A stretch of 64,000 nucleotides of DNA, taken from positions 620,001 to 684,000 of the forward strand of contig NZ_MWQI01000001.1 of NCBI RefSeq assembly GCF_002210345.1, given 5' to 3'. The DNA comes from Fibrobacter sp. UWB4 (lineage in GTDB: Bacteria > Fibrobacterota > Fibrobacteria > Fibrobacterales > Fibrobacteraceae). The notes under the pieces are model-generated. The model was not told where the DNA came from. It saw only the letters and a program-made list of their open reading frames with translations, and made no database searches. Below are positions 32,020 through 63,258 of this stretch, piece by piece (the first letter of the stretch is position 1; each line of letters begins with the position of its first letter). A program made the translations under genes and the position numbers.

Positions 32020-33300
32020 ATGAATTACATCGTAGAAGAAAAGCATAATGGTGAACGTATCGACAAGTTTCTTGTCGGCGTTATGGAAAATGTCTCCCGC
32101 ACAGACGTGCAGAAGCTGATTGAAGCGGGCGAAGTCAAGGTCGGCGGTGGCAAAGTCTCCAAGAACTTCCGCGTAGAAACGGGGATGGCGGTTGTCGTTG
32201 AAAAGATGATCGAGAAGGAATCTTCGACGCTTGAACCCGAAGATATTCCGCTGAACATCGTTTACGAAGATGACGATATCGTGGTCATCAACAAGCCGCG
32301 CAATTTGGTGGTGCACCCGGGTAATGGTGTGAGCAAGGGAACGCTTGCTGCAGCTCTCCTGTACCACTTCAAGGAAAATCTTTCGACTGTGAACGGTCCG
32401 CTCCGTCCGGGTATTGTTCATCGCTTGGACAAGGATACGCCGGGGCTTATGGTGGTCGCGAAAAACGATGCCGCTCACAGGCATTTGGCGCATCAGCTTG
32501 AAACGCGTACGCTCCATCGCACGTACAATGCGCTTGTGTGGGGTTGCCCGCGTGACCTCGAAGGAACGATTGACGCTCCGATTGGCCGTAACCCGAAGAA
32601 TCGTCTCAAGATGGCTGTGGTGAAGGGCGGTAAGGAAAGCCGTACGCATTACGTTGCGAAGCAGTTCTTTGCGATTGCAACGCTTTTGGAATTGCAACTG
32701 GAATCGGGACGTACGCACCAGATTCGCGTACATAGCCGTTACACGGGCCATCCGGTCGTGGGCGATCCGCTCTACGATGGTCGCGATGAAAGCTTGAACC
32801 GCGTGCCGCCTCTGATGAAGCCGGTTGCTGAGAAGGTTCTTGAAATTGCTCCGGCGCAGCTTTTGCAGGCCGTGAAAATCGAACTCATTCATCCGCGCAC
32901 GAACAAGAAGCTCACGTTCAAGGTTCCGATGGAAGAGCCGTTTGCAAATGTGCTCAAGCTCTTGAAGAAGGAATGTCCGGCGTCGGCGCCTGTGTATGAC
33001 GAAGAAGAAGGCTTCCGCGATTTTGACGCGCAGATTCGCTTTGACGAAGATGATGAAGATTTTGACGAATACGCAGAACCGCTCGAAATCTCGCCGGATG
33101 AAGCCGCTCCCGTGAAGGAACGCAAGACTCGTGCCCAGCGCCTCGCCGAGAAAAAGGCGACTGCCGCCAAGCGCCGTGCCGTTGCTGCCGAACGCAAGCT
33201 CATCAAGCAGATGAAGGCCGCTCGCCGCAAGGGAATCGCCCCGGAAGATTTCGTGGAACCGGGTTACGAACCCACAATCGATCCTGAGCTGTTGGAATAA
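32020..33300 (+). CDS. rluD: RluD-type 23S rRNA pseudouridine synthase with long charged tail
   Basis: The 426-residue protein has an S4-like RNA-binding N-terminus (to about 65), then the pseudouridine synthase domain with catalytic Asp137 in GIVHRLDKDTPGLMVVAKN and RTHQIRVHSRYTGHPVVGDPLY. RluD makes pseudouridines in helix 69 of 23S rRNA. The normal fold ends near residue 320; the last 100 residues are an acidic stretch (DEDDEDFDEY) followed by a basic, Lys/Arg/Ala-rich helix. The repeat immediately upstream leaves little room for a ribosome-binding site. Confidence 0.88.
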   Translation: MNYIVEEKHNGERIDKFLVGVMENVSRTDVQKLIEAGEVKVGGGKVSKNFRVETGMAVVVEKMIEKESSTLEPEDIPLNIVYEDDDIVVINKPRNLVVHPGNGVSKGTLAAALLYHFKENLSTVNGPLRPGIVHRLDKDTPGLMVVAKNDAAHRHLAHQLETRTLHRTYNALVWGCPRDLEGTIDAPIGRNPKNRLKMAVVKGGKESRTHYVAKQFFAIATLLELQLESGRTHQIRVHSRYTGHPVVGDPLYDGRDESLNRVPPLMKPVAEKVLEIAPAQLLQAVKIELIHPRTNKKLTFKVPMEEPFANVLKLLKKECPASAPVYDEEEGFRDFDAQIRFDEDDEDFDEYAEPLEISPDEAAPVKERKTRAQRLAEKKATAAKRRAVAAERKLIKQMKAARRKGIAPEDFVEPGYEPTIDPELLE

Positions 33301-62950: not shown

Positions 62951-63009
62951 ATTAAAACCCTTTTTTATTTAACGGTAATATATTAAATTTGTCTTTCAAG
63001 GAGGCTGTC

Positions 63010-63258
63010 ATGGCTAAAAAGAAAGATAAAGCGTTCAGCAAGGTTGCTGAAACCGCCAAAGAAAGCGATGCGATGCGCATGCTCCGCATAGACGGCTCCC
63101 AAAACGGAGCCACGTTACGGACAAGAGTTGTCCGAGACAAGACAAAGTACAAGAGAAATTTGAAACACAAGAAGTCTCTTGGTTTCTGCTATGGATTGAA
63201 ATCCCTCGCCGATGCGGGGGATTTCCCTTTTTTATGGGGTGCGGTCGTATGTGAATGA
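63010..63258 (+). CDS. small basic protein, ArfA-like, with a terminator inside its reading frame
   Basis: The 82-residue ORF has a strong AAGGAGG 5 bases before ATG 63010 (an upstream in-frame ATG lacks this). Residues 1-30 (MAKKKDKAFSKVAETAKESDAM) form a charged helix; residues 36-56 (ATLRTRVVRDKTKYKRNLKHK) match the Arg-Val...Lys...Tyr.Arg.-Lys-His pattern of the ArfA tail, which enters the empty mRNA channel of stalled ribosomes. A perfect 12-bp hairpin plus six T lies before the stop codon, so most mRNA should be non-stop. ArfA identity is inference from this match. Confidence 0.6.
   Translation: MAKKKDKAFSKVAETAKESDAMRMLRIDGSQNGATLRTRVVRDKTKYKRNLKHKKSLGFCYGLKSLADAGDFPFLWGAVVCE
63118..63134 (+). 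repeat. small hairpin inside the ArfA-like ORF
   Basis: CGGACAA and TTGTCCG pair around GAG. Its role is unknown. Confidence 0.6.
63198..63233 (+). terminator. intrinsic terminator within an ORF
   Basis: GAAATCCCTCGC and GCGGGGGATTTC pair over 12 bp (one G-T) around CGAT, followed by CC and six T. It ends 22 bases before the TGA of the ArfA-like ORF. No other terminator follows before the next gene. Confidence 0.88.

Follow-up and report, generated by a model that had tools for sequence, protein, structure and literature searches.

A small gene of Fibrobacter sp. UWB4 appears, from comparison of its sequence with those of its relatives, to found a new protein family of putative release factor (RF)-recruiting backup rescue factors controlled through a non-stop message. 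The gene lies in a window of 64,000 nucleotides (the whole stretch of DNA analyzed here) and carries a transcription terminator inside its own reading frame, ahead of the stop codon. Judged from its homologs, this non-stop gene architecture is nearly certain. By analogy with known systems, the gene probably encodes a new alternative ribosome-rescue factor family, made from non-stop mRNA and held low by trans-translation, and this factor may well depend on RF2, which it would recruit.

A Gene With a Terminator Before Its Stop Codon

The open reading frame (ORF; 82 aa) occupies positions 63010-63258 of the plus strand, from an ATG at 63010 to a TGA at 63256-63258, with a Shine-Dalgarno sequence, AAGGAGG, at 62998-63004, five bases 5' of the ATG. 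An earlier note on this DNA had described an 82-residue frame with a strong Shine-Dalgarno, and both the coordinates and the AAGGAGG were verified in the sequence. Further upstream, 26 nt 5' of the ATG, lies the promoter-like -7 element TAAATTTG (62984-62991, plus strand), an instance of TAnnTTTG, which we take to be the Bacteroidota-type promoter consensus. Of 49 genus loci, 30 carry TAnnTTTG at -24 to -26 from the ATG, where 0.035 would be expected per locus, and AAGGAG is conserved in all 49 upstream regions. Since both elements lie just 5' of the start, the gene looks monocistronic, with a very short leader.

Codons 1-55 (63010-63174) form the conserved protein core, RIDGSxNGATLRTRVVRDKTKYxRxxKHKK in alignment A1, and include codons K52-H53 (63163-63168), which correspond in position to the ArfA and BrfA KH motif. 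A 27-nt in-frame insertion (63172-63198, edges ambiguous), found in A1 only in the allele of the window, separates KHK from the hairpin. The terminator hairpin then spans 63198-63225 on the plus strand and codes for KSLADAGDF; it has 12 pairs, of which 7 are G-C and one is a G-U wobble, and the 4-nt loop CGAT. It is followed by CC and six T (CCTTTTTT; T-run at 63228-63233) and then by 22 bases to the TGA. What had been called a perfect 12-bp hairpin is therefore right as to its 12 pairs, six T and 22 bases to the TGA, and with one G-U is not strictly perfect. The hairpin RNA folds at -19.7 kcal/mol (z -4.5), a stability equaled by none of 200 shuffles. A strict terminator scan, which required 10 or more stem pairs, 5 G-C and 6 of 8 T, gave six sites in the 64-kb window vs. 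none or one in shuffles, and among those six only the hairpin at 63198-63225 sits within a same-strand ORF. The mRNA is predicted to end at about 63231-63233, and the in-frame extension with its TGA (63234-63258), mostly unconserved, is predicted to be missing from the main transcript.

Conservation of the In-Frame Terminator

Orthologs with the terminator 3' of the stop codon, the main objection that the earlier note had raised against its own reading, were looked for and none was found. The stem ends 5' of the in-frame stop in 49/49 intact genus loci, which have common ancestry and are not independent samples, and the terminator within the ORF, whose conservation the note had proposed to check, is kept in essentially every homolog, even in divergent ones whose hairpin sequence differs. 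From stem end to in-frame stop the distance is 9-234 nt (mean 67, median 57; 49 loci), a typical value being close to that expected of random sequence. Conservation of the protein ceases at the T-run, beyond which the loci mostly resemble each other neither in sequence nor in the place of the stop; one group of relatives, with a conserved convergent neighbor in common, partly departs from this in its residues. The hydrophobic residues past the terminator had been likened to full-length ArfA, a comparison that we drop: because conservation does not extend to the 22 bases that follow the T-run, the hydrophobic tail is not a family feature.

The stem itself is 98.3% paired over 44 distinct sequences, and it covaries more strongly than any of 500 shuffles or any slid control. 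One stem pair joins two synonymous third positions, AAA/AAG and GAT/GAC, at which GAC accompanies AAG in 12 cases vs. 1 (Fisher p 0.017, uncorrected for relatedness). The stem is weaker in one relative (L007). In L025 (1650-1737; also L079), a locus truncated by the end of its contig, the in-ORF terminator is broken near that end by ACCCCGAAAGTTGGACACAACTTTCGGGGT, which looks like the end of an insertion element.

An ordinary small gene could present the same picture if the terminator overlapped its 3' end by chance, or served convergent genes, and transcription read through to the in-frame stop. Many downstream neighbors are indeed close and convergent, which makes a shared terminator plausible, and in some relatives the T-run is only 3-4 T. 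However, several loci are not convergent, the stop position is scattered over mostly unconserved residues, and a stop before the hairpin occurs in no homolog (0/49, plus divergent loci). On this last ground we reject plain terminator overlap, which we consider very unlikely. The divergent loci bear on it in another way. A profile search reached L236, L237, L238, and L241, from three other genera of the family, and a paralog (L239), and an in-frame terminator is present in all of them. The L238 terminator is AAATCCTTCGAGGATT followed by A and eight T, and that of L241 is ACGGCCCGCAAGGGTCGT followed by TTGATTTTTT. Because these two hairpins are unrelated to the genus hairpin and yet sit in frame at the same place, it is the in-frame place that has been kept and not the sequence, and the divergent homologs seem to us the strongest argument for a non-stop architecture. 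The paralog L239 (G055 C15, about 61.5-61.8 kb) lies in a Fibrobacter genome alongside the main gene and has an in-frame terminator of its own. Weak profile matches at L242, L243, L244, and L255 were due to chance or ambiguous.

A small ORF that overlaps a terminator also recalls a leader peptide or attenuator for a downstream gene. No conserved co-directional gene follows the loci: downstream neighbors differ in family and strand, the largest group makes up 9/47, and many lie on the opposite strand. The protein itself is, moreover, strongly conserved. With neighbors so varied we reject a leader peptide, whose probability we regard as negligible, and return to the non-stop gene.

Distribution and Conservation of the Protein

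In alignment A1, 23 columns are invariant, including R23, R26, I27, D28, G29, S30, N32, G33, L36, T38, K44, Y47, R49, K52, and H53, and by this comparison the small ORF is a genuine gene. Among 101 relatives searched at the protein level, 49/61 genus genomes have it, and when a profile was run against 168 genomes of the phylum it turned up in 66/80 Fibrobacter genomes, plus one remnant; most of those genomes carry one main copy. There is no copy in 13/80 genus genomes, several of them near complete. The remnant (L245; G049 C43:2500-4300) is decayed, with a Shine-Dalgarno sequence and about 22 codons followed by unrelated sequence, and its genome has no intact copy. Given these 13 genomes and the remnant, the gene is dispensable. 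When 84,980 genome species were scanned with A1, the matches were Fibrobacter, with Fibrobacter succinogenes and other Fibrobacter bins as the named relatives, L099, and L101. L099, on a short contig of a Bacteroidales-labeled bin, keeps the in-frame terminator and looks like a true family member. The matched frame of L101, from a Clostridia-labeled bin, is without the KTKY motif and was taken as chance.

An Rfam search gave no match, nor did PDB sequence searches with the protein and with the profile. AlphaFold2, run with 28 sequences, returned no confident fold (pLDDT 56, pTM 0.19), with a helix at 6-27 and the remainder unstructured.

Comparison With Known Rescue Factors

The KH motif and the in-ORF terminator are common to ArfA and BrfA (PMC6881298, PMC8012679), and in both the KH contacts U534 of 16S rRNA (PMC6881298). 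The earlier note had called the Fibrobacter protein ArfA-like. The PF03889 (ArfA) model found no match in the window protein, 27 family members, 10 relatives, or the organism's own genome, and the KGKGS of ArfA is absent from the family alignment, where hhalign puts a gap. On these grounds the protein is not ArfA, and membership of that family is rejected by the Pfam tests. What survives of the comparison is the basic tail. The ArfA-type tail [YF]-x-R-x-x-K-H is present, with Y47, R49, K52, and H53 invariant, and its spacing equals that in most of 12 ArfA sequences. In a profile alignment the region LRTRVVRDKT---KYKRNLKHK pairs with the ArfA tail at a score of 22.3, reached by 0/900 column-shuffled controls (maximum 19.5), while reversed ArfA gave 7.8; genus-only and other-genera-only profiles each scored above 20 against ArfA. 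Because the hhalign probability against ArfA stays low (11-37%), we go no further than to call common descent with ArfA possible.

Like ArfA of E. coli, the Fibrobacter factor would come from a non-stop message and serve as a backup to tmRNA, and the elements [LF]RxRV..[ND]K...[YF]xR[KNT]xKH stand in the same order in the two proteins. Unlike ArfA, whose mature size is 52-55 aa, it would have about 65 residues; its N-terminal part differs (RIDGSxNGAT), and RNase III cleavage is not indicated for its gene. A survey of 15,259 genomes found ArfA in 0/1,956 genomes of the FCB group, the group concerned here (PMC11633108).

BrfA (YqkK) of B. subtilis has a terminator in its ORF before the stop and an active product of about 62 aa (PMC6881298); it is reported to be without obvious similarity to other Arf proteins and was compared here by its published description. 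It shares with the Fibrobacter gene the terminator within the ORF (49/49 genus loci and the divergent homologs), a KH in the basic C-terminal tail (K52-H53 are invariant in A1; the divergent L238 has no KH at the usual place), and the presence of tmRNA and SmpB. The two differ in phylum, and B. subtilis has RqcH whereas Fibrobacter has none. ArfT of Francisella, which recruits an RF, is likewise very small and basic, but is reported not to be ArfA-like in regulation and contains a stretch resembling KGKGS (PMC6299226). For their broader ArfT family, Burroughs and Aravind describe repeated charged helices (PMC6514570). As for ArfB, the Fibrobacter protein is without GGQ and has no PF00472 match.

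Relatives in Phages

The core RVVRDKTKYxRxxKHK is shared with the phage proteins of DUF7230 and phrog_2701/18092/6310, which the window protein matched in profile searches at E 2e-5 (phrog_2701) to 3.5e-4. Against DUF7230 (PF23876; gathering cut-off 27) the window protein scored 22.2 bits and L237, a short homolog, 27.1 bits. Unlike the Fibrobacter gene, the phage members seen, for example in Vibrio and Campylobacter phages, stop ordinarily; they have 36-58 aa and are without known function. The related Vibrio phage protein adjoins ClpP, and the related Campylobacter phage protein lies between the clamp loader and RNase H. With the consensus as query, tblastn found nothing in phages better than E 3, which leaves the link to phages resting on profile searches, and since our phage set was chosen by a pattern from this motif, its strong profile score against the family is partly circular.

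Phage proteins of 36-58 aa with KKKYxRKxKHK are very common (L116-L209, viral contigs; L102 541-717; L104 1492-1623) and are unannotated or hypothetical. On several marine contigs they lie between the portal and major capsid genes, and on other contigs the protein comes after a 63-aa MMTRKDYVA ORF. In Vibrio phage Va1 (L103 601-699; record 33087-33185) the homolog beside clpP is unannotated, while it is a CDS in sister phages. A divergent relative, L240 (G143 C34, about 22.5 kb; RKTRTRAIPDKRHKAPKHKK), has an ordinary stop and a phage-like setting. Because phage proteins carry the motif with ordinary stops, some of them between portal and capsid genes, the motif alone is no proof of rescue. Phage-borne rescue factors have been proposed before, as a pelagiphage gene annotated as ArfA has been reported (PMC12753301). 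It is a tentative and rather doubtful idea that the Fibrobacter factor, the DUF7230-like phage proteins, and ArfA come from one ancestral rescue peptide with the shared core R-V-x-x-[ND]-K..Y-x-R-x-x-K-H, phages spreading stop-bearing forms on which bacteria would impose non-stop control. The rescue reading would give the DUF7230-like phage proteins a testable role.

Rescue Machinery and Proposed Mechanism

The genomic context fits the rescue reading of the earlier note. tmRNA and SmpB are present in 14/14 genomes checked, where the tags read were ADENYALAA (canonical), ANEEYALAA or ANEDYALAA, and RqcH was found in 0/14. The genome of the window has an RF2 with SPF and GGQ and no recognized ArfA (PF03889) or ArfB.

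In the proposed mechanism, RNA polymerase would halt at 63231-63233 and release a message without a stop, whose end ribosomes would reach. With trans-translation working, tmRNA-SmpB would tag the product for degradation; with trans-translation failing, the product would be stable. The factor would in this way gauge and replace failing trans-translation, as the E. coli ArfA and the B. subtilis BrfA do; the products of their non-stop messages are tagged and degraded while trans-translation works and are stable when it does not (PMC6881298, PMC8012679). Given that logic and the KH tail, the simplest reading is a backup rescue factor.

A small basic protein under trans-translation control might instead have another job, for instance by inhibiting translation or by binding the ribosome in stress or hibernation, and release no peptidyl-tRNA. 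The architecture shows only that the level of the protein should track trans-translation, sequence similarity to ArfA is weak, and the motif also occurs in phage proteins of structural modules. We nevertheless think another job unlikely: the KH tail matches ArfA in place and spacing, and the genomes have no other recognized backup, save a poorly classified GGQ protein. To our knowledge, the well-studied genes with this kind of in-ORF terminator are arfA and brfA, and both encode rescue factors.

RF-recruiting rescue factors made from non-stop messages are so far known from parts of the Proteobacteria and from Bacillus, and our literature search found no paper linking Fibrobacter to such a factor. 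A review points out that similarity searches may have difficulty in detecting others, for which genetic screens might be required (PMC8012679). The Fibrobacter rescue candidate was found from architecture alone, and most of the genus keeps it, as do further genera of the family. Its pattern offers a rule by which more families might be sought: a conserved short basic frame, an in-frame terminator, and unconserved sequence past the terminator.

The poorly classified protein is a third GGQ protein in the 14 genomes, and the two copies tested scored far below the ArfB and PrfH cut-offs. In the genome of the window it lies outside the window, at about 614.5-615.0 kb (L267 312-803, minus strand), as a release-factor-related protein of 163 aa that is PrfH/ArfB-like and below all cut-offs. 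It is present in the Fibrobacteraceae genomes searched and is possibly a second release or rescue factor.
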